A stretch of DNA of 64,000 nucleotides from Fibrobacter succinogenes (GCA_902776765.1 CACYRP010000010.1:1-64000); one strand, 5' to 3'; counted from the stretch's first letter, positions 8,927-50,205 are shown. Numbers and translations: made by a program. The notes: a model not told the origin generated them from the sequence alone.

Positions 8927-8927
8927 T

Positions 8928-10392: not shown

Positions 10393-10478
10393 TTTTTTTT
10401 GAGAAAAATCCACAAAAAAACATTCATCTGTTCTAAATTTTGTTAGCCAAATCTATCTTTTTCAGGAATTTCACAGCC

Positions 10479-14713: not shown

Positions 14714-14719
14714 AAAAAT

Positions 14720-18525: not shown

Positions 18526-18527
18526 AA

Positions 18528-19601: not shown

Positions 19602-19607
19602 AATACA

Positions 19608-30220: not shown

Positions 30221-30229
30221 GGAGTATCC

Positions 30230-33200: not shown

Positions 33201-36200
33201 AAGCTCTTTTACAAAGTCTTGAAAAGAATGCAATCGTCGAAGCGTCTCGCAAACAAGAAACACTCACATCGACCCAATCGCAAATTCTGGATATTTGGAA
33301 ACTCGTGCTCGACCTCAAGGAAATCGATAGCAGCCTCGACTTCTTTGAACTCGGCGGCGATTCCATCAAGGCACAGCGAATTGCTCAACGCATCGATCAA
33401 AAGTACGGCATTCGCGTTCCCTTCGTTTCCGTACTCAACGCCAGAAGTGCAAGAGAATTCGCAGAATCCGTCGAAGACATGATTGTTCCAAAAACAGAAA
33501 CTGCAATAGTGCCATCCAGCGAAAGCGGCGAATCTGGCAACGGCGGCGAATTTCCGACAACAGGCGTTCAGCTGGCCTACTTGAACGGGCGAAACGACCA
33601 CTTTGAACTCGGCAAATACAATGCGCATTACTATTTCGAAATCGAATCGCAATACACCGCCGAAGAAATCGAAAACGCCATCCGCAAAGTCGTCAAAAAG
33701 CATGACGCCTTCCGCGCCATATTCCTCCCCAACGGAATGCAAAAAGTCTTGACGGATGTGCCGGATTATAAAGTCGAGGTCATCCATTGCACTCCCGAAA
33801 ATCGCGAAAGCGAGATTCTAAAAATCCGCAACGACCTTTCGCACCACATTTACAAGCATGATCAATGGCCGCTTTTCACATTCAAAGCTGTTGACTATGG
33901 CGAAGCCAATCGAATGATTTTCGTAAGTTTCGATTTGATGGTATGCGACGGCGACAGCATGCAAATCTTTTTCTCGGACTTAGGGAAAATTCTCCGCAAG
34001 CAGCCTTTTGAAGAACGCATCGGTTATTCTTACGAACGCTATGTACGCGATTTGTCGCAATCCCGCAACGAAAAACGCTACGAAGAAGATAAAGCCTATT
34101 GGATGGAACGCATCCCCAATTTCCCGGAATACCCGCATGTGCCTCTTGCGCAAAAAGTTTCAGATTGCACCGAATACACCATCGTCCGCAAGCAGGATGT
34201 CATTTGCAAAAAGACCTGGGCGAAATTCAAGGAAGTCGCAAAAGCACATCGCATTTCGCCATCATCATTACTTTGTACTATCTACGCCAAGGTTCTTGCA
34301 CGTTGGAGCAACCAACAAGACCTGGTTTTGAACCTTACCGCTTTTGAGCGCAAACCATTCCACAAGGATGTTGAAAAAATCATCGGTGACTTCACCAAGC
34401 TTTTACCTCTCGCACTTTCGATGAACGAAAATGATTTGTGGAAACAGGCATCCGATGTGCAAACACGCATCATGGACGGACTGGAACACTTGTCGTTTGA
34501 CGGCACCGAAATCATGCGTGAACTCGCAAAGTCCAAAGGGCAATTCGGCAAAGCCATTTTACCAGTCGTGTTCACATGCGTTCTTTTCGATGCCCCCGAA
34601 AACTACTTTGAAGTTCTCGGTAAACTGAATTACGCCATTTCGCAGACTCCGCAAATTTTTATTGACAACCAAATTTCCGAAATGGGCAAAAAGCTCTATG
34701 TGACATGGGATGTCGTTAAAGAATTATTCGATCCCGAAATCATCGACAAGATTTTCCACGACTTTGTCGAAAACATCCGCTACATCGCAAACGGAGAAAT
34801 AAAAACAAACTTCCCCGAAATCGAAAGCATTTGGAACCGCTACAATCCTGCAGTAAAGCCTGTCCCTAAAAAGACATTGCACGGACTTGTCGCAAATGCC
34901 ATGGCGAAATTCCAAAACAACACTGCCATTGTCGGGAAAAGCAGTTCCTTGACCTACGCAGAACTGGACTCCTTTTCAAACCGTATCGCAAATTTCTTGC
35001 ACGAAAAAGGCATTATTCGCGGTGACCGCGTCGCCGTTTTGGGAGAACGCATTCCCGAAACCATTGCAAGCATTTTCGGCATTCTCAAAGCCGGTGCCGT
35101 TTATGTTCCCATCGATGTTTCTTACCCCAAGGAACGCGTAGATTTTATCTTGCAAGACGGGAACTGTAAATGCCTTCTGCAAAAGTCCTATCTTGAATCC
35201 AACGGAATCCAGAACTATAGCGACAAGCCGCTCCCCGCAATCAACCATTTTGAAGACGAAGCATACATCATCTACACTTCGGGCAGTACAGGCAAGCCCA
35301 AGGGCGTCATCATGCAGCATGGCGCAACGGCAAACACCATTATCGATGTCAACGAGCGTTTGTCCTTAAACGAAAGCGATACACTGATCGGGATTTCGTC
35401 CATCTGTTTCGACCTTTCTGTTTACGACATTTTCGGAGCCCTCAGCAGTGGTGCAAAACTCGCCCTCGTCAGCGACGCCCGCGATATGAGTGAAATTTGC
35501 AGGACACTCGTTGAGCAAAACGTGACCGTTTGGAACTCCGTGCCCGTACTTTTCGACATGGCCATGAAGCACCGCATTTCTACAAATGACTCAAGCAAGC
35601 TTTCGCTCCGCAAAGTACTCCTTTCGGGCGACCGCATTCCGCTTGACATCTGTGAAACAGCAAAGAACGCAGGCAGCAACGCAGACCTCATCAGCCTCGG
35701 TGGAGCAACCGAAGCGGCCATTTGGTCCATCATCTACCCATTCATCGAAGTACGCCCTGAATGGGATTGCGTTCCATACGGATATCCGATGAAAAATCAG
35801 ACATTCTATGTTCTTGATTCCAATTTGAACCTCTGCCCACCAGAAGTTCAAGGAGATCTTTTCATCGGCGGCGTAGGCCTCGCAAAAGGATACAACAACG
35901 ATCCCGAAAAAACGAACAAAGCATTCATCAAGCACCCCTTACTCGGTCGCATTTACCGCACCGGCGATTTGGGCAAGCTCAAGACAGAAGGCTTTATCGA
36001 ATTCTTAGGACGTTCCGATACACAAATCAAGCTCAACGGCTTCCGCATTGAACTCGGCGAAATCGAATCAGCTATTATGCATACAGGGCTTACCACACGT
36101 GCTGTCGCAGCACTCAAGGATGTTCCTGGCAGCGGAAAGCAAATCATTGCCTATGTTCTTGCGGCAAATGCTGACGCCGAAAATCTCGAAAGCGAAATCA

Positions 36201-36580
36201 AGGAAGAAATTTCCAAGACGCTTACGGGCTACATGATTCCAGCGCGCATCATCACGCTCGAAACATTCCCGCTTTCCGCAAACGGCAAAGTCGACAAAAA
36301 ACAGCTCCCGATTCCTGAAATAGCGGCGCAACCCATCGAAAAGGCCATAACAACAAACGCAGACTTATCGCCAGAAGAAAGGGAAGTTCTCGGGATTTGG
36401 CAGCAAGTATTCGAGAATCCAAACATCACCATCGAAGACGACTTTTACTCCATCGGCGGCGATTCCATTACCTTGATGAAACTTGTCGATAAATTAGCGC
36501 TCGACTTAAAGAAAACCGCATCAATTGACCAAGTTTTGCAAGCGAAAAGCATCAAGGAGTTCATAGATCTTATCCACTAA
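30230..36580 (+). CDS. NRPS: ACP-Cy-A(Cys)-PCP-Cy-A(Cys)-PCP, loading and first two extensions
   Basis: The 2116-residue protein begins with a carrier domain (about 5-75; Ser34 in EDSIQM) suited to accept the starter from the upstream FAAL. It then has two full modules. Cy1 (about 84-510) has E211-x4-D216-x2-S219; A1 (about 530-990) has TSGSTGVPKG (660-669) and pocket D-L-Y-N-L-S-L-I-W; PCP1 carries Ser1045. Cy2 (about 1108-1525) has canonical D1235-x4-D1240-x2-S1243; A2 (about 1550-2025) has TSGSTGKPKG and the same pocket; PCP2 carries Ser2079. Neither A domain has a methyltransferase insertion and there is no TE, so the chain must pass to another protein. GGAG precedes the ATG. Confidence 0.92.
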   Translation: MSQFSQNEILEIVNQILKQNTQTDTSLYEVFEDSIQMFRFLGEIKERLEIEFGMLDLVKAETIGDLVDKIQEKIGKAADVEKKIPLTPMQQSYRLGREQNFHGSVNSTHIYFEVEHTLDIDKAETCIRKLIETHEALRAFVHNEDQYILSKDISKNFRIAREIISEESLNANLEQKRFKAQTEMRDFGKWPLFSIANITTENRSIACIDLELMFIDGLSAQGLAAEFFSLYHDGTLPTFDFENNPQYIEWIKSRKDSAKHDADAEFWHKLEESIPAAPKLPTVSTRNSEPNICKSVQRTFDKTTMKSLEINSRKNGVTSSVVLFYQYLKTLARFSESNELSVNITMLNRPYGIEGMDHIIGDYTSNVIFDFANSKIAQLPLKEALQQIRDQMYERIDHSAYEGVEVIRDLIRQKKIDNENPMPIVFTSMLFGRLPEAKGVKVIYKQSQTSQVSIDNQICKTHDGGLLISWDYLEKIFPGNTIEEMFRYYTESIEAFAKMGESSTEDLQFEKDVFAYNKTEKTFDIEHPITRLQRSFEKFRDRTALRNGVMTAMTYGELEDSVRKAMYGLKMQGVACGDSVAILSQKNFSTVIAILATMGLGATYIPVDSKWPEDRKKYILENSSCKLLVDPQKLVELQTRERSDFAPNTNLDATAYVIYTSGSTGVPKGVLISYKGMMNTIIDINERMGINENTSILGLSSYCFDLSVYDLFGSLIAGAELDIAKDIRETDEIRHFMDHSKNILWNSVPAGMELFIDSLEESYVNHELKSVLLSGDWISVSLPARIAKHFPEAKIYSLGGATEASIWSIIFPIEHVEDSWQSIPYGYPLANQTIYVLNESLEICPPEVQGEIYIGGAGVAQGYANSEEKTKAAFIDHPKFGRIYKTGDFGRFSSNGYVVFLGRKDSQVKVGGYRIELGEIEQRMNTLDNVDSAVALLDANKQIIAFYTGIQTEKDIFKAALAKFLPSYMIPHRFVHLDAMPLSSNGKLDRKALLQSLEKNAIVEASRKQETLTSTQSQILDIWKLVLDLKEIDSSLDFFELGGDSIKAQRIAQRIDQKYGIRVPFVSVLNARSAREFAESVEDMIVPKTETAIVPSSESGESGNGGEFPTTGVQLAYLNGRNDHFELGKYNAHYYFEIESQYTAEEIENAIRKVVKKHDAFRAIFLPNGMQKVLTDVPDYKVEVIHCTPENRESEILKIRNDLSHHIYKHDQWPLFTFKAVDYGEANRMIFVSFDLMVCDGDSMQIFFSDLGKILRKQPFEERIGYSYERYVRDLSQSRNEKRYEEDKAYWMERIPNFPEYPHVPLAQKVSDCTEYTIVRKQDVICKKTWAKFKEVAKAHRISPSSLLCTIYAKVLARWSNQQDLVLNLTAFERKPFHKDVEKIIGDFTKLLPLALSMNENDLWKQASDVQTRIMDGLEHLSFDGTEIMRELAKSKGQFGKAILPVVFTCVLFDAPENYFEVLGKLNYAISQTPQIFIDNQISEMGKKLYVTWDVVKELFDPEIIDKIFHDFVENIRYIANGEIKTNFPEIESIWNRYNPAVKPVPKKTLHGLVANAMAKFQNNTAIVGKSSSLTYAELDSFSNRIANFLHEKGIIRGDRVAVLGERIPETIASIFGILKAGAVYVPIDVSYPKERVDFILQDGNCKCLLQKSYLESNGIQNYSDKPLPAINHFEDEAYIIYTSGSTGKPKGVIMQHGATANTIIDVNERLSLNESDTLIGISSICFDLSVYDIFGALSSGAKLALVSDARDMSEICRTLVEQNVTVWNSVPVLFDMAMKHRISTNDSSKLSLRKVLLSGDRIPLDICETAKNAGSNADLISLGGATEAAIWSIIYPFIEVRPEWDCVPYGYPMKNQTFYVLDSNLNLCPPEVQGDLFIGGVGLAKGYNNDPEKTNKAFIKHPLLGRIYRTGDLGKLKTEGFIEFLGRSDTQIKLNGFRIELGEIESAIMHTGLTTRAVAALKDVPGSGKQIIAYVLAANADAENLESEIKEEISKTLTGYMIPARIITLETFPLSANGKVDKKQLPIPEIAAQPIEKAITTNADLSPEEREVLGIWQQVFENPNITIEDDFYSIGGDSITLMKLVDKLALDLKKTASIDQVLQAKSIKEFIDLIH

Positions 36581-36709: not shown

Positions 36710-36777
36710 AAAAAAATATGGCACACCTTTCGGCATGCCATACTTTTTTCTTCTATGGGAGTCTGGGATTATAGAAG
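36710..36777 (-). terminator. Terminator module, copy 1 (3' of lipoprotein 1)
   Basis: TATGGCA (36717-36723) pairs with TGCCATA (36736-36742), flanked by an A-run (36710-36716) and a T-run, so it can terminate in both directions. A second hairpin, CTTCTAT/ATAGAAG (36750-36756 and 36771-36777), has AGTCTGGG in its loop. The whole module is repeated at 40492-40557. Confidence 0.75.
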
Positions 36778-36803: not shown

Positions 36804-38039
36804 CTAGTCATCAAGCGGAACGATATAATAAGCAGTTCCTGTCGTTACATCCATTTCCTTCGTGACCTTTCCAGATGCAATGTCATAGCGGTACACGGCA
36901 CCACCCTTCTTATCGGCATGGCCCAAAAGAACGCTCTTGCCATCGGCATCCAAATGAATGGACGGAGCAAACCACGGAATTGTCGGAGAAAGGCCTTCAA
37001 TCTTTTCAATAGTCTTTTTCTTCAAATCAATGACAACAAATTCCCATTCGTAATTGTTATAGTTGCTCGGATCTTCGAAGTTACCGAAGAAGCCAAGGAA
37101 CTTGCCCTTACCCAAATAAGCACCACCACTCATCAAATAATTGTTATTGCTTTTTTTGCCAGCGTAAGCGGCATCATGCAAATGGAAAACCCAATCCTTA
37201 TCAAATTCAGTTTTGCCCTTCTTAAGACGAACAAAGCCTTCTTTATAACCATCCATCCAACCCATTGCGGCATTGGAATAGTAGTAGATATCGCCATCTT
37301 CATCAACGAAAGACATGGTATTGTTCATATCGTCAATAACGCCAACGGCAGCTGTAAGGTTTTCCGTAATAACCTTTTCAACCTTATCCGTCTTGACATC
37401 AATAACAGCAACAGACCCCTGAGCACCGGTAATCATGCTATTAAGATCCACCATCTGTGAAAGGGCAACGAACATTTTGCCATCGCGAATCACCGCAGAA
37501 TTCGGGACCGTAGTCACAGCGCCATTCTTTTCGTCAATATATTTGGAAAGGTCAATTGTAGCCTTTTCCTTAAGGGTAATCGGATCAAGTGCTGTAATGG
37601 CATCACCCAAAGTCTGTTCAACATACATTTTGTCCTTATCGACAAATTTCATCATGAGAGCATGTGTGCCCTTGAATTTAGCCGTAGCAGCCGGCTTATC
37701 GGACATATTGTTATCCTTGTCCAGTTCATAGCGTACAAGCGTGCTATTCATATCTTCGACATAGAGCGCATAGAGCGAGCCATTAAAATATTGGAAACTG
37801 CCCTTATTGGGGATTTCAACAAAGTCATCCACCACTTTTTTCTGATCCGCAGAAATTGACGCTGTTCCAATGAACTGGGAATTTTCCACCATGAAAGAAA
37901 ATCCGTACTTCTTTCCGCTTTCATTGGAATCGTCGGATGCATTGGAGTTCGAATCGCTACAAGCGGCAAGTCCAAAAACGAGACTGGAAACAGCGAGACC
38001 TTTAAAAAGGCTCGGAATGATTTTGTATGTCTTTTTCAT
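36804..38039 (-). CDS. Surface-type lipoprotein, beta-propeller-like (lipoprotein 1)
   Basis: The 411-residue protein has a lipoprotein signal ending in the lipobox LAAC (GLAVSSLVFGLAAC), then a Ser/Asn/Asp-rich linker. The body is made of repeated blade-like units (for example YFNGSLYALYVED, VIRDGKMFVALSQM and VIDVKTDKVEKVI) suggesting a beta-propeller. It is clearly paralogous to the lipoprotein at 45317-46516: both have TALDPITLKEKATIDLSKY-like and IDVK.DKV-like segments. It follows a TonB-dependent receptor gene by 77 bases. The pairing recalls XusB, the siderophore-binding lipoprotein partner of the receptor XusA in Bacteroides. Capture of the ferric metallophore at the cell surface is inferred. 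Confidence 0.8.
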   Translation of the reverse strand: MKKTYKIIPSLFKGLAVSSLVFGLAACSDSNSNASDDSNESGKKYGFSFMVENSQFIGTASISADQKKVVDDFVEIPNKGSFQYFNGSLYALYVEDMNSTLVRYELDKDNNMSDKPAATAKFKGTHALMMKFVDKDKMYVEQTLGDAITALDPITLKEKATIDLSKYIDEKNGAVTTVPNSAVIRDGKMFVALSQMVDLNSMITGAQGSVAVIDVKTDKVEKVITENLTAAVGVIDDMNNTMSFVDEDGDIYYYSNAAMGWMDGYKEGFVRLKKGKTEFDKDWVFHLHDAAYAGKKSNNNYLMSGGAYLGKGKFLGFFGNFEDPSNYNNYEWEFVVIDLKKKTIEKIEGLSPTIPWFAPSIHLDADGKSVLLGHADKKGGAVYRYDIASGKVTKEMDVTTGTAYYIVPLDD

Positions 38040-38116
38040 ATTATTCCTTTTTGTTGTTTAAATTTTCCGTCACAATGTCATCCTAAAGTCCGAAGAGCAA
38101 TAGGAGCCATCATTTT

Positions 38117-40357
38117 TCAAATCGAAAATTTCACCTTCGTCGCAAAAGCCCTGCCCGGTTTTGATTCACCGTACTTATCGTAAACACGTTCATCCGTTAA
38201 ATTATGAACTTCAAAACTCCATGAAAGTTTATTCGCAAAAATTGAATATTCCACGCCCAAATCTTGCGTAAACGAACTTGGAATCGTACGATCCTGCTTT
38301 TTAGAAACCTTCCAGGTGTAGTAATAATCATCCGTATAATTTGCAAACCAGTAAAGTTTTAAAAAATCTTCGTTGAAAAAAAGATCACCACTATGAAATT
38401 CTGCACCAAAATTCATATAGAATGTCGGCATATTCGGCACAACCAAATCCTTTGCAATGCCATAAGAAAAATCAGCTTCGCGGCTCTTGGCATCCTGTTT
38501 TGTCAGGTTAAACGAAAGCGCTATATATTCATTCACATCAACGCCCAAGTCTATTTCAAAGCCACTCGTTTTTGTACCAACGCTGTTATAATACGGGCGC
38601 GGCACAGCAACATAGCTGTTCCAATAAATCCGGTCATCCATCAAAAGGTAGAACCAGTTGAATTCAAGATGAAGCTTTAACAAAAGCGGAATCTTATCTA
38701 AATCAAGTTCTGCACCCGCCGTAAAGTTATCGGAATGTTCCGGTTTTAAATTTGGAGAGCAAGCCACATAAATTCCGTCGCCAAAAATTTCTTCACGAGT
38801 CGGGAATCTCAAGCTGTGCTGATACCCAGCCTTGACCGCCAACGCTTCCATCAACTTCACCCGCAAATTTTCGCTAAAGCCAAAATCTTTCTGCGAATAC
38901 TCATCATTAATCAATTGCTGCACTCTATTTTCGCCGTCATTATCGGCTTCGATATTGTAAAAGTATCCCTTGATTCCAGCCACATTCTGGATTCTTTTAT
39001 TCCAAAAGTTATTTTCAAGAGATAACCCCGTTATAAGCGAATAAGCGTGTCCTGGAAAACCAGCATTATTCAGCTTTTTATTTTTCACAGACAATTTATC
39101 TTTCGAATCCTGAGATTCATAACGGAACAATCCGCTCCACGTCAGGTTATGATTTTCAGAAAATTCATAATTAACATTCCAAGGGACAAGCAATGAATAA
39201 TTTTTATATTCATAAAACGAAGGAGAGCCGAGAGTAATTTCGCCTAGTGAAACTTCACTTTCTTTATAGTCCGACTTATCCCAACCATAATAATACACAT
39301 GAGTCGTGTCAACAACACTTTCTTCACCATAATTAAAGCCTATAGAAATAGCAGCGGAAAGTCCATCCACAAACAAGTTCGTTTTTTCCAATGATAATGA
39401 AACTCCGTAGCCGAAGGCATCAGCAGAAGCATGTTCTACACGATGCGCTGTCGATTGGATTTCTTTATCACTTGCACCAAAGCTTGCTCCAATGCTGATT
39501 TTATCAAAGTAGAAGTTATTCAAGTTGACAAATGGGGAAATATTATAACTGTAATAACGGCCATAATCTCGCGTCACCACCGTATCCATATACGGAGTGG
39601 TAAATTCGTAATCATTATCGGAATAGTTATAATATGCAGAGAGCCCCGTTTCAACAGCACGTCTTTTCAGCGAGTCCGTCACCCACACGTATTTTGCATC
39701 AAGCGATGCCTTATGTGTATTGAAACTTCCGAACGAATAAGAACCTGTAACGGAACTTTCGAACAAGTTCTTCGTCACAACATTGATAACGCCGCCCATG
39801 CCATCTGTTGCAAAACGTTCCGGCACATAACTCTTGTAAACTTCAATGCGATCAATTTTATCGATAGGAATATCGTTAATTGAAAGGCTACCATTTCCAT
39901 TATCCACAGGAACGCCATCCACAAGGACTTTGACGTTCTTGCCTTCCATGCCGCGAATATTGATTTTACTTTCGCCGCCGAGACCGCCCGATTGACGGAC
40001 TTTCACGCCCGATGAACGGTTTGTCGCTTCGGCAATTGTCGCACTGGAACCTTGCAATTCCTTTGTATCCAAGACCTTGACGGATTCAGCCTTTATTTTT
40101 GCATCAATGGGAGCCGTTTCCGCTTCAGTTTCATCTTCAACAGATAGCCCTTCAAGAACCGTAACATCCGAAGGCTTTGCGGAACGTTCAGAATTCGGAG
40201 ATGTACTTACTGCAGATTCATTAGATGGCGCAGCACTAGCCGCATCTGTAATAGTCGCAGGCTCATCGAAAAATGCGTCATCATAGCTCGTGACTTCTTC
40301 GTTCTGTGCAAATACGCAAATCGAAGAAAGAGCAATAGAAGCAAAAACTTTTTTCAT
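38117..40357 (-). CDS. TonB-dependent outer-membrane receptor 1
   Basis: From the ATG at 40357 the receptor has about 746 residues. It has a signal peptide (MKKVFASIALSSICVFAQ), an acidic, Ser/Ala-rich N-terminal stretch, a plug domain (VKVLDTKELQGSSATIAEA, then KINIRGMEGKNVKVLVDGVPV and GGVINVVTK) and a beta-barrel ending in TKVKFSI. The upstream TTG at 40396 is less likely as start. It is paralogous to the receptor at 42847-45099. It heads an operon with lipoprotein 1 and sits below operator B. The substrate is probably the locus's own ferric metallophore, or a related xenosiderophore. Confidence 0.93.
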   Translation of the reverse strand: MKKVFASIALSSICVFAQNEEVTSYDDAFFDEPATITDAASAAPSNESAVSTSPNSERSAKPSDVTVLEGLSVEDETEAETAPIDAKIKAESVKVLDTKELQGSSATIAEATNRSSGVKVRQSGGLGGESKINIRGMEGKNVKVLVDGVPVDNGNGSLSINDIPIDKIDRIEVYKSYVPERFATDGMGGVINVVTKNLFESSVTGSYSFGSFNTHKASLDAKYVWVTDSLKRRAVETGLSAYYNYSDNDYEFTTPYMDTVVTRDYGRYYSYNISPFVNLNNFYFDKISIGASFGASDKEIQSTAHRVEHASADAFGYGVSLSLEKTNLFVDGLSAAISIGFNYGEESVVDTTHVYYYGWDKSDYKESEVSLGEITLGSPSFYEYKNYSLLVPWNVNYEFSENHNLTWSGLFRYESQDSKDKLSVKNKKLNNAGFPGHAYSLITGLSLENNFWNKRIQNVAGIKGYFYNIEADNDGENRVQQLINDEYSQKDFGFSENLRVKLMEALAVKAGYQHSLRFPTREEIFGDGIYVACSPNLKPEHSDNFTAGAELDLDKIPLLLKLHLEFNWFYLLMDDRIYWNSYVAVPRPYYNSVGTKTSGFEIDLGVDVNEYIALSFNLTKQDAKSREADFSYGIAKDLVVPNMPTFYMNFGAEFHSGDLFFNEDFLKLYWFANYTDDYYYTWKVSKKQDRTIPSSFTQDLGVEYSIFANKLSWSFEVHNLTDERVYDKYGESKPGRAFATKVKFSI

Positions 40358-40444
40358 CTTTGTAATCTCATCCACCCATTTACTTTTAATTTTCAATCAC
40401 AAATTGTCGAGTAAAAATAAATTCAAAACACCACCATTTTCTAC

Positions 40445-40475
40445 TCTAAAATGTTTGACTACAATCCAATTAGAC
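40445..40475. promoter_or_regulatory. Operator B upstream of receptor 1
   Basis: TCTAAAATGTT (40445-40455) and TCCAATTAGAC (40465-40475) are 20 bp apart. They lie in a 47-base block that aligns without gaps to the tonB operator at 10272-10318. The site is about 90 bases before the receptor start, between it and the feoB terminator. Confidence 0.75.
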
Positions 40476-40491
40476 GAGGATAACTTTTTAC

Positions 40492-40557
40492 AAAAAAAAG
40501 TATGGCGCACCGTTCGGCACGCCATACCCTCTTCTATTGTAGTCTGGGTTTTAGAAG
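40492..40557 (-). terminator. Terminator module, copy 2 (3' of feoB)
   Basis: GTATGGCG (40500-40507) pairs with CGCCATAC (40520-40527), with an A-run at 40492-40499 that is the T-tract on the minus strand. A second hairpin, CTTCTA/TAGAAG (40531-40536 and 40552-40557), carries the same AGTCTGGG loop as copy 1. One stem pair differs from copy 1 in a compensatory way (G-C here, A-T there). Confidence 0.8.
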
Positions 40558-40562
40558 AAATC

Positions 40563-42617
40563 CTAAAGCACCCACAGAGCAACGTGGTAAACTATAAACG
40601 CCAAGCCGAGTGAAATAGCAAAGTAGTAGCCAGCAATGGCAGCGGTCCATTTCACGGAATGCGTTTCGCGATATGTTGTACCCATCGTAAGCACGCAAGG
40701 CACGTTAAACATGGATGCAAAAATAAACGCAAGCGCTTCGGGGATCGTCACCACAGCACGCATCATTTCACCAAGATTTGCACCAGCCGCGTTACGCGAC
40801 ACAAGTGAGAACGCATCGTTTGTACTCGAGAACACGACACTCATCACGCCAAGCGAAGCTTCCTTGCTAAAGACGCCACCCAGGTAAGAGATAAACAGTT
40901 GCCAACGCATACCAAAAATTTGCGTGAACGGTTCAATCACGCCGCCAATGCGATACAAAAGGCTATGCGTCACCAAACCATCGCTCGAATAAGATACCGC
41001 CCAGAAAACAAACGAAACAAACCAAATAACAATAATTGCTTTTTTGAATACACTCCAAACATTGCGACCAACAGTCTTAATCAAGTTTTTCCAATGCGGT
41101 TTATGGTACGGCGGAAGTTCCATAATCATCCCGACTCGTTCATTAACAGGGACAAGCTTGTTGCCAAAAAGCTTTGCCGAAAGCCAGAACGACGCAAAAA
41201 TCAATGCCACATAGATTAGCCCAAACAATGGCGCGGCAGAGCCAAAGAACACCGAGGCCAAGAACAGCACCACGGAAACTTTAGCACCGCAAGGAATCGA
41301 CCACAAAAGAGTCATCGCAAACAAGCGCTGTCCACGAGTATCCAGGACTCGCGTACCACACACAGCGCCACCCGTACAAGCAAGGCCCGAAACAAGCGGC
41401 ATAAACGCCTTGCCATGCAAGCCAAGTCGCGAAAGCCAAGAATCAAACACGAACGACGATCTTGCCAAATACCCCGTATCTTCCATCAATCCAAAAGTCA
41501 CGAGAATCGAGAATACAAAAGCCATCATTGCAATTGTTACTGCAAGTCCATCAACAACAACGCCATTGATGAACGATGCAACAGAAGGCCATAAGCCAAG
41601 CGATGCGCAAAATTCATTCACATGCGGAACGGCAGCTCCCTGAGCAGCAAAACATCCCATAATTACCGGCATTGCAATCATCATGCTTACGGCAAGCGTA
41701 ATCACCAGAATGAAGAACGCCACAAGCTTGCCCCAAATGCGGTGCGTCGCTATTCTATCAAATTTCGAAAGCGGTTTGACATTTTCATTTTCCAAAGATA
41801 TTCCGCGAAGCACTTCTGAGATAAAGTGGTATTTCGCCTCGCCCGTCACAAGGCCACCTTCTTCATCCAAAATTTTCTTGATTTTCGTCCAGCGTTCGGG
41901 AACAACGGACAAAACAACTTCGGAGGTAACTAGCGAATCATTTTCCAACAGTTTTGAAGCAATCCAAAAGCTATTGCGTTTACCAAAATCTATTCCATCG
42001 AGCAGTCGCCCTATTTTCTCAATCAATGAAACTCCGCGACCTTCTGCGGCACCATTTGCGGCACTCTCGGTAACAGCAGTACTTTCCTTTAGCACAGCAC
42101 AGATTTTTTCCGAAGAAATCATTGCCGTCTTTTTCATAGCCCGTTCAAGAGTTTCAAAAAAGCGCGGATAGCATCCCGTTTCAGCAGCAACAAAGCCAAG
42201 CACAGGAATATTCAAAAGACGCTCTAGCTTTTCGACATCTATTTTTTTGCCCTTTTGCTCAGCAACATCCATCATGTTGAGCACCAGCATCACAGGGATT
42301 TTGATTCCCGCAAAATCCGCAAGCATGTAGAGGCTGCGTTCCAATTGCGAAGCATCTACGATAATGCATACAAGGTCAGGATTACCATGTTCAATAAAAT
42401 CGCGCGTCACAATTTCTTCGGCTGAGTTTGCCGTAAGCCCATAACTGCCAGGCAAATCAATAACGCGATAAACATCTTCACCCTGCGAGAAAAATCCCTC
42501 CGCTTTTTCCACCGTTTTTCCTGGCCAGTTGCCCACATGTTGGCGAGAGCCTGTCAATGCGTTAAAAAGTGTAGATTTCCCTGAATTCGGTTGTCCCAAG
42601 AGAGCGATTGTTCTCAT
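40563..42617 (-). CDS. feoB: Ferrous iron transporter FeoB
   Basis: The 684-residue protein has an N-terminal GTPase with G1 GQPNSGKST (8-16), G3 DLPG (54-57) and G4 NMMD (114-117), then a helical linker and a polytopic membrane domain with the two FeoB gate segments (for example LACTGGAVCGTRVLDTRGQR and SYLGGVFSKEASLGVMSVVF). It imports Fe2+ across the inner membrane. It is translationally coupled to feoA and lies in the same run of genes as lipoprotein 2 and receptor 2. This suggests that iron delivered by those proteins is reduced in the periplasm before uptake. Confidence 0.96.
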   Translation of the reverse strand: MRTIALLGQPNSGKSTLFNALTGSRQHVGNWPGKTVEKAEGFFSQGEDVYRVIDLPGSYGLTANSAEEIVTRDFIEHGNPDLVCIIVDASQLERSLYMLADFAGIKIPVMLVLNMMDVAEQKGKKIDVEKLERLLNIPVLGFVAAETGCYPRFFETLERAMKKTAMISSEKICAVLKESTAVTESAANGAAEGRGVSLIEKIGRLLDGIDFGKRNSFWIASKLLENDSLVTSEVVLSVVPERWTKIKKILDEEGGLVTGEAKYHFISEVLRGISLENENVKPLSKFDRIATHRIWGKLVAFFILVITLAVSMMIAMPVIMGCFAAQGAAVPHVNEFCASLGLWPSVASFINGVVVDGLAVTIAMMAFVFSILVTFGLMEDTGYLARSSFVFDSWLSRLGLHGKAFMPLVSGLACTGGAVCGTRVLDTRGQRLFAMTLLWSIPCGAKVSVVLFLASVFFGSAAPLFGLIYVALIFASFWLSAKLFGNKLVPVNERVGMIMELPPYHKPHWKNLIKTVGRNVWSVFKKAIIVIWFVSFVFWAVSYSSDGLVTHSLLYRIGGVIEPFTQIFGMRWQLFISYLGGVFSKEASLGVMSVVFSSTNDAFSLVSRNAAGANLGEMMRAVVTIPEALAFIFASMFNVPCVLTMGTTYRETHSVKWTAAIAGYYFAISLGLAFIVYHVALWVL

Positions 42618-42835
42618 ACAAACACCACCTCAATCTGAGCACATTCTTTGCGGTTTATTGCAATCATCGTATCGTGCGAATACAAAAGCACCGGTGAACG
42701 GCCATCATTTTGCAACACCAAAAACGGGCTGCTTGGCGGGAGTCCCATAGATACGACACGAGAAATAAAACGGGAATCCCCGTTGATATGCCGAATCAGA
42801 CCATGCTGATTTTCTTTCATTTCTGACAAAAACAT
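42614..42835 (-). CDS. feoA: FeoA domain protein
   Basis: The 73-residue SH3-like protein has the FeoA pattern SRFISRVVSMGLPPSSPFLVL, the usual glycine turn after a basic strand, and a C-terminal IAINRKECAQIEV segment. It overlaps feoB by four bases (ATGA). The start at 42835 has an AAGGGG site. It probably assists FeoB. No feoC is visible. Confidence 0.88.
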   Translation of the reverse strand: MFLSEMKENQHGLIRHINGDSRFISRVVSMGLPPSSPFLVLQNDGRSPVLLYSHDTMIAINRKECAQIEVVFV

Positions 42836-42846
42836 TTAAGCCCCTT

Positions 42847-45099
42847 CTATCTAAAACTGTAGCGAATCTTTGTTGCAAAACTTCTACCCGGCTTGCTTTC
42901 GCCAAACTTGTCATACGAGCGAGCATCAGCCAAGTTATCAACTTCAAAGCTCCAGCCCAATTTATTATCCCACAAGGAATATTCGACGCCAATATCTTGC
43001 GTGAACGAGGATTTAATTTTACGGCTCTGGCGGGAGCTAATTTTCCAGCCATAGAAATATTCATCCGTATAATTTGCAGACCACCAGACTTTCAAAAAAT
43101 CTTCCTTGCTAAACAAGTCGCCAATATGGAACTCTGCAAGATAGTTCATAAAGAATCGTGGAATATTCGGAACGATTGCATCCTTGGGAATGCCCTGTTT
43201 TGCATTATATTTTACATTGCGTAAATCTTGGAAAGTCCAGTTCGTTCCTAATAAAATCCACTCATTTACATCCAACTTTACATCACCTTCATAGCCCCAG
43301 CTACGGATCGGATTCATGTTAAAGTAAGGCGTTGACATCTGTGCCGAGTTCATGTAATGGATTCGATTCTTGTAGTACGAATAAAATACATCACCGTCAA
43401 AGCGGAGTCTTGTTACAAGCGGCAATTCCTGCAAATCCACAGAAATTCCAAAATTGAAATTATCCGTTTCTTCAGGCTTGAGTTTTATCGCAGCACTCAC
43501 GCGAAGGCCGTCACCAAACAGTTCTTCGGGAGACGGCAGACGCACCGCATGTTGATACGAAGCCTTCACAGAAAGCGGTTTTGCAATTTTGAACATCAAA
43601 TTTTCATCATAACTGAAATCCGTGTAGTCATTCGATTCTACCGCAGGTTCAATCAGAAGGCTCGTCGGCATATTCGAAATTTTGGCATTCAAGTAGTGGA
43701 ATTTGAAGCCTGCGAGATTTTGGATTCGAGAATTCCAGAAACGATTTTCAAGCGAAATGCCAGTAGTCACAGAAAACATTTCACCTGGAAGCCCTGCCGT
43801 ATTGAAACCCATCTTTTCCGAACCAAGATCATCTTCAGGATTTTCCTTATGATATCTGAGAAGCGTATTCAAATAAACAAACTGATCTTTTACATATTGA
43901 TAATCAAGATTCAATAAATTATTAAAATCGTAAATTTCAACAGTACGAAGTTTCGGGAGCCCCATTGATGTAAGCTCTCCCACATTTTTCTTTGCGACAT
44001 CGCAGCTAAACCAATTGCGGCAATGAACGCGGCTTGTATCGATTATTTTGTTTTCTGCAAAACCAAATGAAAAATAGTCGCCAAAATTCAAATTCTTGGC
44101 AATAAAGTTTTTCTTGTCAAGACCAAATGAAACACCGAAATTGTAGCCTTCGGATGTTGTTTCCTTAATACGATATTCGATGCCCTGAATTTCCTTGTCA
44201 AACGCACCGAAACTAGCACCAAGCGAAAATTTATCAAACCAGGCATTCATCAAATTTGCGAAAGCCTGCACATTGTAGGATGTATAATGGTCGTGATCGC
44301 GAACGACACTCGTATCCTTGCCCGTAGAACTTTTCATATACGGCGAAGTGAATTCATAATCGTTATCGGAATGGTTAAAATATCCCGATACACCAATTTC
44401 AAGGCTTGTCGCACCCGCAATGCTGTCTATCAAATGGCTTGCACTGACCGACGCTTTGTGTGTATTAAAGCTCGAAAAACTGTAAGATGCGTCCACAGAA
44501 TTTGCCGGGCGTTTCTTTGTCACAACGTTAATGGCACCGCCCGCGCCGTCTGTCGCAAAACGTGCAGGAATATAGCCTTTATAAACCTCGATATCCGCAA
44601 TTTGGTCAATGGGAATATCGTCAAGCCCCAAATTTCCCTGCGTTTCGACAGGAACGCCATTGACAAGCACCTTGATGTTCTTGCCTTCCATGCCGCGAAT
44701 GTTTATTTTACCTTCGCTGCCCATTCCGCCAGACTTGCGAACTTTCACGCCAGATGCGGAATTAATCGCCTTGGAAATGCTCTTGCTCGTATTCTGCAAT
44801 TCGGCGGCATCAATCGTAGAAACCGTTTCGACCTGTTTCGCAATTGCAGCCTGCTCAGCTTCCGATTCCGTCTCGACCGAAAGCAAATCCAATCGCGTGA
44901 CATCTTCCGAATTTGCAGAGGAGTTCGTAGCTGCGGCACCATTCGCCGAGACATTCGCAGCATCCGTGCTAATCGCCGGACTTTCATTTTCATCCGCAAA
45001 ATCATCGAATTGCGTCACTTCATCATCTTGCGCAAAAACAGCCACAGTCAAAACTGCGGCACAAGCAAGCACAAATCTCATTCTTTTATAGATATTCAT
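42847..45099 (-). CDS. TonB-dependent outer-membrane receptor 2
   Basis: The receptor of about 750 residues has a signal peptide (MRFVLACAAVLTVAVFAQ within its first 25 residues), a linker similar to that of receptor 1, a plug (KINIRGMEGKNIKVLVNGVPV, GGAINVVTKK) and a barrel ending in TKIRYSFR. The reading frame is open further upstream to 45243, but that part (LTPTASAASLGYAGLQAARRN-like) lies in an unusual GC-rich intergenic block and has no ribosome binding site, so the ATG at 45099 is used. It precedes feoA by 11 bases and follows lipoprotein 2. Confidence 0.92.
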   Translation of the reverse strand: MNIYKRMRFVLACAAVLTVAVFAQDDEVTQFDDFADENESPAISTDAANVSANGAAATNSSANSEDVTRLDLLSVETESEAEQAAIAKQVETVSTIDAAELQNTSKSISKAINSASGVKVRKSGGMGSEGKINIRGMEGKNIKVLVNGVPVETQGNLGLDDIPIDQIADIEVYKGYIPARFATDGAGGAINVVTKKRPANSVDASYSFSSFNTHKASVSASHLIDSIAGATSLEIGVSGYFNHSDNDYEFTSPYMKSSTGKDTSVVRDHDHYTSYNVQAFANLMNAWFDKFSLGASFGAFDKEIQGIEYRIKETTSEGYNFGVSFGLDKKNFIAKNLNFGDYFSFGFAENKIIDTSRVHCRNWFSCDVAKKNVGELTSMGLPKLRTVEIYDFNNLLNLDYQYVKDQFVYLNTLLRYHKENPEDDLGSEKMGFNTAGLPGEMFSVTTGISLENRFWNSRIQNLAGFKFHYLNAKISNMPTSLLIEPAVESNDYTDFSYDENLMFKIAKPLSVKASYQHAVRLPSPEELFGDGLRVSAAIKLKPEETDNFNFGISVDLQELPLVTRLRFDGDVFYSYYKNRIHYMNSAQMSTPYFNMNPIRSWGYEGDVKLDVNEWILLGTNWTFQDLRNVKYNAKQGIPKDAIVPNIPRFFMNYLAEFHIGDLFSKEDFLKVWWSANYTDEYFYGWKISSRQSRKIKSSFTQDIGVEYSLWDNKLGWSFEVDNLADARSYDKFGESKPGRSFATKIRYSFR

Positions 45100-45119
45100 T
45101 ATCAAAAAATTTTCTAAAG

Positions 45120-45310
45120 TGAAAAAAGCGTCGGCCAAGGTATTTTCTTCGCAGTAGCGCGCAAAACGAGTGTTGCGACGGGCTGCTTGCAGACCGGCAT
45201 AACCGAGTGAAGCCGCTGACGCCGTAGGCGTCAAAAGCATCAAAGGCGAATGCTGCGGTTCCGAGCTGGGGCCCCGCCCGCATGATTTTTTCGCTTAGCC
45301 GTTAGGCCTC
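45120..45310. other. GC-rich intergenic block between lipoprotein 2 and receptor 2
   Basis: About 190 bases of distinctly GC-richer DNA lie inside an otherwise AT-rich operon gap. It contains a hairpin, TGACGCC-GTA-GGCGTCA, near 45217-45233, and GGGGCCCCGCCC near 45269-45280. It keeps an open frame into receptor 2 but no plausible start. It may be a dispersed element or a structured leader for receptor 2. No function is assigned. Confidence 0.45.
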
Positions 45311-45316
45311 ATAATC

Positions 45317-46516
45317 TTACTTCAGCGGAACCATCCACATCGGGATTTGTTCGGCCTTGGCAATCTTCTTGGCTTTATCCGTTTTCGGATCATAGCGGAA
45401 GTAGGCGTTGCCATCTTTTTCCGTAGAAACCGCAAAGATCACCTTGCCATCTTCCTCGACATACTTACCGTAACTAGCCCAGCTCGAAGTATAATCAATC
45501 GGCAAAGCCTTCATCTTTTTCTTTGCAAGGTCAATCTGCACCGGCTTGCAAGTGGGATTGTGGTAACTTTCCGCATCAAGCCAACCCTTTTCCAGATCCT
45601 TCATCACGTTCAAGAAAGAGTAAACGTAACCATCGCTCGGATGTGTTGACGGCGCGAGATATTTGAAAACACCTTTCTTGGTGATACCGTCAATGGCAAC
45701 ATCCTTGCTCACAAACCAAGCGTAATCCTTGTCAAACTTGGTTTCGCCCACCTTGATACGGAGGAAACCATCAACCTGGCCGGGAGCGTAGCCCCAAGAA
45801 GCATTACTGTAGCAATAAATATAACCATCAAGTACCGTAAACGACTGATTTTCCGAGTCGTCTAGAGAACCCACTGCAGCGACGCGGTCATCCGTAGCAA
45901 CGGCAATGACTTCGTCCTTCTTAACATCGATAATGGCAACTTCAGCTTGATTACCTGTGCGGTACTCATCTTGGTTCTGGATGAGACCTACATAAAGGCG
46001 ATCATCGACAATCACGCCCGTACCAGGGGTTACCACATAAGCATTCTTACTCTTGTACTTGGAAAGATCAATAGCACCTGTTATCTTCATTGTTTTCGGG
46101 TTGATGATGAGTAGGGAATCCATCAAGCCACCGACATATGCTTTTTCTTTGTTTACAAAGTAGATATGGTCCGACCATTTTCCTGGAAGGGAAAGTACAG
46201 CCTCTTTTTTGCCAAGCTTATTATTTTCGGCCAAGCTGTAACGGGAAATAGAGCCGACATCCAAATCAGCGATAAACAAGGCATTATCATAATACACAAC
46301 GCCTGCACGCGTGCCAACTTCAACAAAGTCCTTGCCCAAATCATCCGTGTGGTCTAAAGACATCGTGCCGATAAACATCGTTTCGCCCGTCGAAATGGAT
46401 GTTGCAAATTCGCGTTTGTAATCATCATCGCCGTTTGAAGAAGTCGAAGAATCGTTACCGCAAGCAGCCAAAACACTTGCCGCAACAAAAGAGAGTGCTA
46501 AAAGTTTTTTATTCAT
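45317..46516 (-). CDS. Surface-type lipoprotein, beta-propeller-like (lipoprotein 2)
   Basis: The 399-residue protein has a lipoprotein signal ending at LAAC (MNKKLLALSFVAASVLAAC), a Ser/Asn/Asp-rich linker and repeated blade-like units (VVYYDNALFIADLDVG, LLIINPKTMKITGAIDLSKY, VAIIDVKKDEVIAV). It is a paralog of lipoprotein 1 (36804-38039). It is the first gene of a minus-strand operon with receptor 2 and feoAB, and its promoter region holds the operator triplet D. A substrate-capturing partner of receptor 2, as XusB is for XusA, is the preferred inference. Confidence 0.8.
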   Translation of the reverse strand: MNKKLLALSFVAASVLAACGNDSSTSSNGDDDYKREFATSISTGETMFIGTMSLDHTDDLGKDFVEVGTRAGVVYYDNALFIADLDVGSISRYSLAENNKLGKKEAVLSLPGKWSDHIYFVNKEKAYVGGLMDSLLIINPKTMKITGAIDLSKYKSKNAYVVTPGTGVIVDDRLYVGLIQNQDEYRTGNQAEVAIIDVKKDEVIAVATDDRVAAVGSLDDSENQSFTVLDGYIYCYSNASWGYAPGQVDGFLRIKVGETKFDKDYAWFVSKDVAIDGITKKGVFKYLAPSTHPSDGYVYSFLNVMKDLEKGWLDAESYHNPTCKPVQIDLAKKKMKALPIDYTSSWASYGKYVEEDGKVIFAVSTEKDGNAYFRYDPKTDKAKKIAKAEQIPMWMVPLK

Positions 46517-46618: not shown

Positions 46619-46694
46619 AGATTTAACTAATTAAGTCTTTAAAAGAATTCATTAAAAAATTAAAATTGGGGCGAAAACAAAAAGAAGGTCCAAC

Positions 46695-48485
46695 ATGAGT
46701 GTTTTTAAAAGATTAACACATTATATGCAATCAAGGAAAATTTTATTTCCGTTTGCACTTTTATTTTCTGCACTAAGCGCCATCGCTGGGATGATACCAT
46801 TTATATATGTATGGTTCATTGTCCGCGAACTATTCACCGCGACCGGGAATATTTCATACGATATGGTCAAGCATTATGCGATAATCGCCGTTATTTTCTC
46901 GGCGGCAAGCGTTCTCCTTTACTTTGCGGCACTCGTCTGTTCGCACTTGGTCGCGTTCCGCGTCGAAGGCAACATCCGCCGATTCACAATCAAGAAACTT
47001 CTCATGCTTCCGCTCGGATTTTTCGACAGAAATCCATCCGGTCGCATCCGCAAAATTCTTGACGACAACGCTACAGTCACTCATACTTTTATTGCGCATG
47101 AGCTTCCGGACTTATCGGGAACCCTTATCATCCCTATCGCGGCACTCGTTCTTTTATTCGTTTTCGATTGGCGTTTGGGCATTGCCTCTATCGTCCCCAT
47201 CGCATACGCTATCGTGACTCTTGGAACCAAGATGAACAAAAGCAAGGACTTTATGCAAAAATACATGAAGTCGCTCGAAGATATGAACACCGAAGCCGTC
47301 GAATATGTGCGCGGCATCCCCGTCGTTAAAGTTTTCCAACAAACTATTTACTCCTTCAAAAACTTTTACAACACCATCGAAGATTACCACAAGATGGTTG
47401 TTGCCTATTCCAGTAGCTGGAAGTTCATCATGTGTTCCTACACAACGCTTATCAACGGTGTTGCGCTTTTGCTCGTTCCTACGGCAATCCTCATCATCAC
47501 GAATTCTGGGAACATCGCAGCAACAATCATCGACTTGATGCTTTACATTCTCGTGACTCCCGTTTTCTCGCAAAATATCATGCGCAGCATGTACTTGAGC
47601 CAAGCCCTCAACAATGCAAGCATCGCCATCAACAGCATCGAATCCTTGACAAACTATCCAAATCTTGCGGAACCTACTAATCCGCAGCAAATCAAGAATT
47701 TCGATATCGAATTCAAGAATGTCGATTTTACATACCCCGGCACAGAAAATCAGGTGCTTAAGGGAATTTCGTTCAGCATCAAAGAAGGCCAAACCGTTGC
47801 ACTCGTAGGTGCATCGGGCGGTGGCAAGAGCACTATCGCAAAACTCGTCCCACGATTCTTCGACGTGACAGGCGGCGAAATCCTCATCGGAGGCGCCCCA
47901 ATCAAGGAAATACCCAAAGAAGTCCTCATGAAAAAAACATCATTCGTTTTCCAGAATACTCGACTTTTCAAGAAGAGTATTTTGGAGAACGTCCGTTACG
48001 GAACTCCTGAGGCTTCCATCGAAAGCGTGAACAAAGCGTTAGACCTCGCGCAATGCCGCGAAATCATCGACCGCTTGCCAGATGGCATCAACACTGTCAT
48101 CGGTACCAAGGGCACATACCTTTCCGGTGGCGAACAGCAGCGAATCGTACTTGCACGAGCCATCCTCAAGAACGCCCCCATCGTCGTTCTCGACGAAGCA
48201 ACCGCATTTGCCGACCCCGAAAACGAACACCTCATTCAAAAGGCTTTACAGACACTTTCCAAAGGCAAGACAGTCTTGATGATTGCACATAGACTCACAA
48301 GCATCGTCAATGCAGACCAAATTCTCGTTGTACAAGGCGGCGAAATCGTAGAACGCGGCACGCACAAGGAACTCGTCGAAAAGGGCGGCATATTCGCCAA
48401 GATGTGGAAAGATTACCAGCAATCCGTCACATGGACCATTGGCGCAAACGCAGGCAGCAACAATAACGGAGGCGAAAATGTATAA
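46695..48485 (+). CDS. ABC transporter permease/ATPase, YbtP/IrtA-like (second locus, first subunit)
   Basis: The 596-residue half-transporter has an N-terminal six-helix domain and an ATPase with Walker A GASGGGKST, signature LSGGEQQR and LDEATAFADPENE, the variant shared with ABC1 and the YbtPQ/IrtAB group. AGAAGG precedes the ATG. It overlaps the next gene by eight bases, consistent with a heterodimer. Two such pairs in one locus suggest either separate import and export roles or uptake of two related complexes. Confidence 0.9.
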   Translation: MSVFKRLTHYMQSRKILFPFALLFSALSAIAGMIPFIYVWFIVRELFTATGNISYDMVKHYAIIAVIFSAASVLLYFAALVCSHLVAFRVEGNIRRFTIKKLLMLPLGFFDRNPSGRIRKILDDNATVTHTFIAHELPDLSGTLIIPIAALVLLFVFDWRLGIASIVPIAYAIVTLGTKMNKSKDFMQKYMKSLEDMNTEAVEYVRGIPVVKVFQQTIYSFKNFYNTIEDYHKMVVAYSSSWKFIMCSYTTLINGVALLLVPTAILIITNSGNIAATIIDLMLYILVTPVFSQNIMRSMYLSQALNNASIAINSIESLTNYPNLAEPTNPQQIKNFDIEFKNVDFTYPGTENQVLKGISFSIKEGQTVALVGASGGGKSTIAKLVPRFFDVTGGEILIGGAPIKEIPKEVLMKKTSFVFQNTRLFKKSILENVRYGTPEASIESVNKALDLAQCREIIDRLPDGINTVIGTKGTYLSGGEQQRIVLARAILKNAPIVVLDEATAFADPENEHLIQKALQTLSKGKTVLMIAHRLTSIVNADQILVVQGGEIVERGTHKELVEKGGIFAKMWKDYQQSVTWTIGANAGSNNNGGENV

Positions 48486-50205
48486 CTGGATAAAAAAACG
48501 TTTTGCCCTTTCTGACGAAGGCACAAAGACATTTATCAAAGGCGTATTTTGGACAACATGGCATTACCTCTCGCTCATGTTCCCACTTTCCTTTGTATTT
48601 CTATTTTTGAAAGAATACATGGCAAAGATGGAAAACCCGTCCGCAGAACCGCACAACATTTTCATCTATTTGATTATAGCAGTTGTCATTTTTGTCGTGA
48701 TGTACGGTCTTTACGCGCTTTCGTACAGCAGTACTTACGATTCCGTTTATCTAGAATGCAAAAAACGACGCATCACGCTTGCTGAAAAACTCCGCAAGCT
48801 TCCGCTCGCATTCTTCGGCAAAAAAGATCTTTCCGACTTGACATCCACCATCATGGCCGACGTCAATTCACTCGAAATGATTTTTTCACACGCCGTTCCA
48901 GAAATCTTTGCCGTCGGTGCAATGCTCGTCCTCTGCGCTATTGCACTCTTCATTTACAACCCCCTGATGGCAACAGCGCTCTTGTGGGTCGTGCCGTTTG
49001 CCGGTTTACTCATTTTCATCTCGCGCAAGATGCAGTTCAAAAACTACAAACACACATACGATTCTGGGCGAGTCATTTCCGAAGACATTCAGGAATGCCT
49101 TGAAAACATCCAGGAAATCAAGGCTTACTGCGAAGAAGAAAGCATTTGCAAAGCCATGGATGAGCATTCCAGGAATCACGAAAATAGCCAAATCAAGGGC
49201 GAATTTTCAACCGGTGTCATTCTGAATGGCGCACAAGTTTTCTTAAAATTCGGCCTTGCATCCGTCTTGATTTTCGGTTCCATTCTCCTGGCACAAAACA
49301 AGCTCAGCATTTTCGATTACCTTGTGTACATCGTTTGCGCTTCGACAATTTACAGTCCCATCTATCTTGTTCTCAACAACATGTCAGAACTGTTCTTCTT
49401 GGATGTGCGCCTCAACCGCTTCAAGGAAATGGACAATATGGAAGTGCAGCGCGGTACTACAAAATTTACGCCCAAGAATTTTGATATCGAATTCAAGGAC
49501 GTGAGCTTCTTCTACAACGAAGACAAACAAGTTTTGAAGAATGTATCGTTCACCGCAAAGCAAGGCGAAATCACCGCACTCGTCGGGCCATCCGGCAGCG
49601 GAAAGACAACCGCAGCAAAGCTCGCCGCCCGCTTCTGGGACATCCAAGGCGGAACAATCACGCTCGGCGGCGAAGACATTTCAAGAATCGATCCCGAAAC
49701 GCTCCTCAAGAACTTCTCCATCGTCTTCCAGGATGTCGTACTGTTCAACGCCTCCATCCGCGACAACATCCGCATCGGTAAACGCGACGCCACCGACGAA
49801 GAAATCCTCCGCGCCGCAAAACTCGCCAACTGCGACGAGTTTGTCCAAAAACTTCCGCAAGGCTACGACACCGTCATCGGCGAAAACGGCGACACGCTCT
49901 CCGGTGGTGAACGCCAGCGCATCTCGATTGCACGCGCCATCCTCAAGGACGCCCCCATCGTGCTCCTCGACGAAGCCACCGCAAGCCTCGATGTCGAAAA
50001 CGAATCCAAGATTCAAGAGAGCATTTCGAAACTCGTGCAAAACAAGACCGTCATCATCATCGCCCACCGCATGCGTACCATCGCCAATGCAGACAAGGTT
50101 GTGGTCCTGCAAAACGGTCAAGTCGCCGAAATCGGCTCCCCCGCCGAACTCAAGCAAAAAGGCGGACTCTTCTGCAAGATGCTCAAGCTCCAGGAAGTGA
50201 ATTAA
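48478..50205 (+). CDS. ABC transporter permease/ATPase, YbtQ/IrtB-like (second locus, second subunit)
   Basis: From the ATG at 48478 (GGAGG site) the protein has about 575 residues, with a membrane domain and an ATPase showing GPSGSGKTT, LSGGERQR and LDEATASLDVENE. The DVENE ending departs from the ADPENE of its partner. An upstream in-frame ATG at 48439 lies inside the previous gene and lacks a binding site. A terminator follows. Confidence 0.9.
   Translation: MYNWIKKRFALSDEGTKTFIKGVFWTTWHYLSLMFPLSFVFLFLKEYMAKMENPSAEPHNIFIYLIIAVVIFVVMYGLYALSYSSTYDSVYLECKKRRITLAEKLRKLPLAFFGKKDLSDLTSTIMADVNSLEMIFSHAVPEIFAVGAMLVLCAIALFIYNPLMATALLWVVPFAGLLIFISRKMQFKNYKHTYDSGRVISEDIQECLENIQEIKAYCEEESICKAMDEHSRNHENSQIKGEFSTGVILNGAQVFLKFGLASVLIFGSILLAQNKLSIFDYLVYIVCASTIYSPIYLVLNNMSELFFLDVRLNRFKEMDNMEVQRGTTKFTPKNFDIEFKDVSFFYNEDKQVLKNVSFTAKQGEITALVGPSGSGKTTAAKLAARFWDIQGGTITLGGEDISRIDPETLLKNFSIVFQDVVLFNASIRDNIRIGKRDATDEEILRAAKLANCDEFVQKLPQGYDTVIGENGDTLSGGERQRISIARAILKDAPIVLLDEATASLDVENESKIQESISKLVQNKTVIIIAHRMRTIANADKVVVLQNGQVAEIGSPAELKQKGGLFCKMLKLQEVN

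Follow-up and report, generated by a model that had tools for sequence, protein, structure and literature searches.

XusAB has been described as a means of iron piracy in the Bacteroidota, a phylum that is not known as a maker of siderophores (PMC13142918). In B. theta the iron is reduced by XusC, a PepSY-type protein, and Fe2+ is then taken up by an inner-membrane carrier that has not yet been identified (PMC13142918). B. fragilis XusB (BfXusB) is only 20% identical to its B. theta counterpart (BtXusB), and the hookless form of XusB tends toward hydroxamate and not catecholate ligands (PMC13142918). The yersiniabactin system (FyuA, YbtPQ, YbtA and YbtU/Irp3) uses a lone receptor, FyuA, together with YbtPQ, which works as an importer although its fold is that of an exporter (PMC10967856). 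In the literature, with subscription journals mostly outside our search, we found no paper on Fibrobacter siderophores or on XusB outside the Bacteroidota. Here we describe XusAB-type pairs in another phylum, the Fibrobacterota, located beside the cell's own siderophore genes and YbtPQ-like transporters. The locus lies on a 64,000-nucleotide stretch of Fibrobacter succinogenes DNA (GCA_902776765.1, CACYRP010000010.1:1-64000), which we refer to as the window. Unlike XusAB of Bacteroides, it holds two pairs and adjoins NRPS metallophore genes of its own.

Two XusAB-type pairs and a thiazoline metallophore operon

A preliminary description of this DNA proposed two paralogous lipoproteins, each encoded beside a paralogous TonB receptor, with the second pair continuing into feoA-feoB. 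We found both lipoprotein ORFs, LIPO1 at 36804..38039 and LIPO2 at 45317..46516 (both minus strand), and their products are 34% identical over 397 amino acids (E 3.5e-49). Each has a signal peptide and an LAAC lipobox (Cys27 in LIPO1, Cys19 in LIPO2), and no third copy was found in the same genome. The receptors of pair 1 (TBDR1, 38117..40357, minus strand) and pair 2 (TBDR2, 42847..45099, minus strand) are 47% identical over 757 amino acids, with starts corrected from reading the sequence: the TBDR1 ORF opens at 40396 with a likely ATG at 40357, and the TBDR2 ORF opens at 45243 with a likely ATG at 45099. TBDR2 is contiguous with feoA (42614..42835, minus strand; Pfam FeoA, PF04023, 37.7 bits with a cut-off of 23) and feoB (40563..42617, minus strand; TIGR00437, 383 bits with a cut-off of 316), the latter from a lineage with the atypical first gate motif GLACTGGAVCGTR. 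The spacing is tight, with a gap of 11 bp and then an overlap of 4 bp, and the description was borne out on each of these points.

The gap between feoB and TBDR1 contains a terminator-like hairpin and T-run (40492..40526, minus strand), in which the perfect 7-bp inverted repeat TATGGCG/CGCCATA is followed by CTTTTTTTT. The hairpin (40526-40501, with the T-run to 40492) was identified by eye, as its loop is too long for the terminator scan, and its position makes TBDR1-LIPO1 a separate unit. This unit ends 3′ of LIPO1 in a hairpin and T-run of the same type as that following feoB (36711..36742, minus strand; inverted repeat TATGGCA/TGCCATA). Between LIPO2 and TBDR2 lies a GC-rich interspersed repeat (45130-45290, minus strand) with 47 matching pieces in the same genome, some of them 97-99% identical and in a modular arrangement, which has the look of a small intergenic element, mobile or REP-like.

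Both receptors resemble XusA along their full length. Among all solved chains, TBDR2 matched 9gbc_A (XusA) best (E 9e-61, 209 bits), followed by a ferric enterobactin receptor with 50 bits in the plug region. 9gbc_A was also the best PDB sequence for TBDR1 (E 6e-51, 177 bits), with BtuB second at 39 bits. The 9gbc accession appears in the XusAB paper (PMC13142918), and its chain B is a DUF4374 protein. The best NCBIfam match of both receptors was the myxochelin receptor family MxcH (NF038079), nearly full length, at 327 and 338 bits, which is far below the family cut-off of 925 bits. In the receptor tree, pair 1 and pair 2 form monophyletic clades with support of 1.0 and 0.94, respectively, indicating that the split between the pairs predates the species compared. 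The lipoprotein tree likewise has a monophyletic pair 1 (support 1.0), and its pair 2 is poorly supported.

Comparison of the predicted lipoprotein folds with XusB had been set beforehand as a test of the proposed XusA/XusB likeness, and the folds proved to be related. AF2 models of LIPO1 and LIPO2 (pLDDT 83 and 82) each had ferrichrome-bound BfXusB as the best PDB match (Foldseek E 3e-18 and 1e-14, respectively). The predicted structures aligned to BfXusB with Z 34.8 over 348 residues at 2.7 Å for LIPO1 and Z 30.8 over 345 residues for LIPO2, placing BfXusB 6-7 Z ahead of the next structural families (Z 24-28) in both cases and placing the two proteins nearest the hookless B. fragilis form. 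A profile built from 23 Fibrobacter lipoproteins also found BfXusB as the best PDB sequence (E 1.5e-6), with BtuG-type proteins and B. theta XusB next at E near 0.005. In a possible difference from XusAB, the lipoproteins fall under the Pfam DUF4374 threshold, as no window protein matched the model. The lipoprotein of a Prolixibacteraceae relative scored 22.6 bits with a cut-off of 25. The likeness claimed by the preliminary description is thus supported for the two receptors, by their match to 9gbc_A, and for the two lipoproteins, by their BfXusB fold.

BtuG proteins were the second structural neighbor of the lipoproteins (Z 24-27), and BtuB-BtuG of Bacteroides also combines a TonB-dependent receptor with a surface beta-propeller lipoprotein, raising the question of whether the pairs take up cobamides. 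The receptors, however, score 209 and 177 bits to XusA and only about 40 bits, confined to the plug, to BtuB, the lipoproteins match XusB better by the lead in Z given above, and the locus encodes a thiazoline metallophore with no sign of a cobamide function. Based on the receptor and fold scores we rejected cobamide uptake as very improbable.

In a weak profile alignment, the ligand-contacting residue W235 of BfXusB corresponds to Leu in the LIPO2 group and to Ile, Met or Tyr in the LIPO1 group. Provided that this alignment is correct, the replacements suggest ligands other than those of BfXusB. The lipid-anchor cysteine is followed by a Ser/Asp/Lys-rich tether, long in several orthologues, which may hint at a lipoprotein on the cell surface.

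The NRPS operon for a thiazoline-type metallophore (13970..36580, plus strand; assigned by TIGR01761 and Pfam domains) lies between LIPO1 and ABC2, one of four ABC half-transporters considered below. It encodes a thioesterase, an NRPS, a thiazolinyl imine reductase (18522-19601; TIGR01761, 246 bits with a cut-off of 189), a PPTase and an AMP ligase, with Irp3-like_C, Condensation, AMP-binding and methyltransferase domains among its products. The reductase and the YbtP-like exporter-fold ABC halves are features shared with the yersiniabactin system, as is an AraC regulator between the receptor and ABC genes in many relatives. The locus differs from that system in having XusA/XusB-type proteins for the outer-membrane step in place of a lone FyuA and in having FeoAB in the receptor operon, and a salicylate synthase was not seen among the window ORFs that were read. 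The palindrome TTAGTTAAATCTAA occurs in the gap between LIPO2 and ABC3 (46617-46630), and sites of the same kind are found at 3983 and 62805. It is kept at about -114 in related loci, where the promoters compared come from close relatives, and could as a lead be considered a possible metal-regulator box.

Candidate routes across the inner membrane

We considered two sets of genes at the locus as inner-membrane candidates, the YbtPQ-like ABC pairs and FeoAB. ABC3 (46695..48485, plus strand), a YbtP-like half of a type IV (exporter-fold) ABC transporter, is divergent from LIPO2 and is followed by its partner half ABC4 (48439..50205, plus strand). ABC1 (10440..12233, plus strand) is a YbtP-like half-transporter that heads the NRPS operon, with ABC2 (12233..13951, plus strand) as its partner. 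YbtP (6p6i_A) was the best half-transporter in the PDB for ABC3 (356 bits, with IrtA at about 300 and MsbA at about 250) and for ABC1 (319 bits, with IrtA at 261). ABC4 matched TM288 at 274 bits and then YbtQ at 255, and ABC2 matched MsbA and IrtA about equally (275 and 271 bits), such that neither partner has a clear YbtQ preference. Full P-glycoprotein-type chains outscore YbtP, but as two-half proteins they have the scores of both halves summed. An ABC1 homologue beside pair 1 in a genome that lacks the NRPS reductase (G033) also ranked YbtP (313 bits) above IrtA (274 bits).

The direction of transport cannot be assigned from sequence for exporter-fold ABC proteins. One explanation is that siderophore (or drugs) leaves the cell through the ABC pairs and that another carrier serves inner-membrane uptake, as would fit the exporter fold and the position of ABC1/2 as the first genes of the NRPS operon. 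Against this explanation, ABC3/4 flank LIPO2 in every locus with a contig long enough and are kept even where the NRPS reductase is absent, a setting that would leave an exporter of the cell's own product idle; ABC1/2 also persist without the NRPS reductase in two genomes (G006 and G019), and ABC1 and ABC3 rank YbtP and IrtA above MsbA. We therefore consider export improbable and, inferring import from the linkage and from the presence of the pairs without the NRPS reductase, regard the ABC pairs as the likelier route for the ferric siderophore. At 4034-8537 of the window, next to the genes for TonB-ExbBD, are genes for an RND/MmpL-like protein, a LolA-like/DUF1329 protein and a DUF1302 barrel, which are kept without NRPS genes in other genomes, making product-specific export by them unlikely. 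In another locus the module 1 ABC pair is followed by a 443-residue multi-pass membrane protein judged by eye to be MATE-like (L038:18020-19351).

It had been suggested that periplasmic reduction of the iron is followed by Fe2+ uptake through FeoB, in which case the siderophore would stay out of the cytoplasm. The link of TBDR2 to feoAB is conserved: the three genes adjoin one another, in the order TBDR2-feoA-feoB, in 12 genomes with one FeoB lineage and in two loci with a second, only about 60% identical to the first. Such conservation over two lineages hints that the role of FeoB may go beyond that of a parallel route. Reduction by XusC and uptake of Fe2+ in B. theta provide a precedent (PMC13142918). 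In addition, a third, usual-type FeoB and a DtxR-type iron-dependent repressor are found beside pair 1 in other loci, with the repressor between LIPO1 and feoB (L042:3745-4203 and L046:8710-9165). As a main route, however, the proposal was not supported. No PepSY_TM protein (PF03929, the XusC-type reductase) was found in the genome, which is 93% complete, in a search that matched the control genomes. Many loci have no FeoAB beside TBDR2; in contrast, the YbtPQ-like ABC3/4 pair is present wherever the contig is long enough, and each receptor-lipoprotein pair is linked to an ABC pair of this type, a connection that the preliminary description did not make. Because no PepSY reductase was found, unlike in XusABC, we class the Fibrobacter proteins as XusAB-type pairs and not as a XusABC system. 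We find it rather unlikely that FeoB is the main route.

The FeoB gate also bears on this question. The first gate motif reads GLACTGGA in the window FeoB and GIGCTAGA in the 60% lineage, compared with GFGCSVP and GFGCGVP in other Fibrobacter FeoB proteins; with the usual motif taken as GFGC[NSG]VP, the window FeoB does not fit. We read the change as that of a functional variant, for which the FeoB assignment by curated cut-off stands and the claim of Fe2+ carriage is lowered, and the altered motif means that the metal of the TBDR2-linked FeoB is not certain. The system could then serve mainly another metal, such as Zn, Cu, Ni or Mn, in keeping with the several metals bound by yersiniabactin-type molecules (PMC10967856) and with a P-type (E1-E2) metal ATPase that lies directly 3′ of TBDR2 in some genomes without linked FeoAB (L056:13922-16003, L037:3375-5456 and others). 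The FeoA/FeoB linkage, the XusA/XusB homology and the DtxR-type repressor beside pair 1 in relatives all point to iron instead, and we judge a main role in another metal to be distinctly unlikely. Another locus carries ECF-type transporter genes between FeoAB and LIPO1 (L047:7306-10166), with a Trep_Strep S component, a CbiQ-like domain and a double ABC ATPase, and two loci have an ABC match at the same place (L090 and L095); these genes are a third inner-membrane candidate.

We propose a model to which we assign a probability of roughly 0.6. The lipid-anchored beta-propeller would hold the metal-loaded siderophore and pass it to the XusA-like receptor, a predicted hand-over at the outer membrane as in XusAB. 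The receptor would be powered by the TonB-ExbB-ExbD set encoded at the far end of the island (8534..10216, minus strand; assigned by the TonB_C Pfam domain and synteny), which adjoins ABC1. A YbtPQ-like heterodimer, ABC3/4 for pair 2 and ABC1/2 for pair 1, would then carry the intact metal-siderophore across the inner membrane, with the metal probably set free in the cytoplasm; a SIP-type cytosolic reductase (PF08021) was looked for and not found. In the anoxic rumen, Fe2+ that is free or released by reduction would enter in parallel through FeoAB, and pair 1 would serve the cell's own siderophore and pair 2 a shared one.

Distribution and proposed division of labor between the pairs

We compared 61 Fibrobacter genomes, all of them MAGs or drafts. 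At least one of the lipoproteins is present in 30/61, and the thiazolinyl imine reductase of the NRPS operon is present in 6/61, all six among the lipoprotein carriers. Hence, most carriers would use the siderophore of others; "producer" is used here for a genome with the reductase gene and its NRPS neighbors and implies nothing more. The genes form two separable modules. Module 2 consists of LIPO2-TBDR2 facing ABC3-ABC4, often with the AraC regulator between them, and module 1 consists of TBDR1-LIPO1, which in most other loci faces a pair 40-44% identical to ABC1/ABC2. The window has both modules fused with feoAB in between. Its arrangement is kept across the genus and is therefore not due to chance. 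The same flanks occur with ABC1/2 and without the NRPS genes in G006 and G019, and without either in G068 and G070, which are both about 100% complete. In relatives that lack ABC1/2 and the NRPS genes, TonB-ExbB-ExbD directly adjoins LIPO1. Pair 1 without neighboring ABC1/2 was seen in G068, G070 and L088, pair 1 alone in G033, and pair 2 alone in G003, G005, G010, G012, G014 and G029, with module 2 and feoAB being all that remains in G014. Outside the genus, the Prolixibacteraceae contig L094 holds two similar units, TetR-receptor-lipoprotein, with 22-29% identity.

Pair 1 is present in 6/6 reductase-positive genomes. One of these, G001, lacks LIPO2 and about 600 amino acids of TBDR2 between intact ABC3/4 and feoA (L041:15614-16282, also L091), which, this being a MAG, could reflect a genuine loss of pair 2 or a fault of assembly. 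The genomes with the most different tailoring genes, G001 and G004 (reductase 66-67%, SDR about 50%), are those in which LIPO1 differs most as well (48-54%), with TBDR2 still 85-96% identical to the others. The mean tip distance is about 0.39 for pair 1 versus 0.24 for pair 2; pair 1 diverges faster overall and pair 2 is conserved. The dN/dS ratios did not demonstrate positive selection in LIPO1, as they are below 0.7, with synonymous sites near saturation in many comparisons. Pair 1 does not simply track the chemistry: LIPO1 of the producer G061 differs by about 40% from that of G076, and their reductases are 98% identical. LIPO1 of G061 is 99% identical to that of the non-producer G019 (dS 0.008), compared with dS 0.16-1.5 for other island genes, indicating recent exchange between a producer and a non-producer.

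The preliminary description had the pairs capturing the locus's own metallophore. This part of the claim is supported in part: pair 1, with the NRPS genes next to it, is the better candidate of the two and probably serves the cell's own thiazoline siderophore, and most pair-bearing genomes lack the biosynthetic reductase. Pair 2 most likely serves a siderophore that is shared by many Fibrobacter or taken from others. It was further proposed that the duplication separates apo- from metal-loaded siderophore. We discarded this idea, as each type occurs singly in many genomes and the two are unlike in rate and partners, leaving such a split hardly credible.

Implications for iron acquisition in Fibrobacter

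We raise the tentative possibility that XusAB-type capture is not piracy alone, with pair 1 recapturing the cell's own siderophore and pair 2 together with the gate-variant FeoAB forming a route for shared siderophore. If this is true, the inner-membrane iron carrier that is missing after XusAB could be FeoAB. With siderophore biosynthesis and two inner-membrane candidates at one locus, both open points of XusAB become testable by gene deletion, and one locus opens a cell's iron route to reading and testing from end to end. Fibrobacter is a main cellulose degrader of the rumen, and the proposed roles of the pairs, if true, would amount to a rumen iron economy of producers and cheaters built on surface-lipoprotein receptors. 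The pattern of presence and absence among its genomes makes Fibrobacter a natural model of siderophore producers and users.
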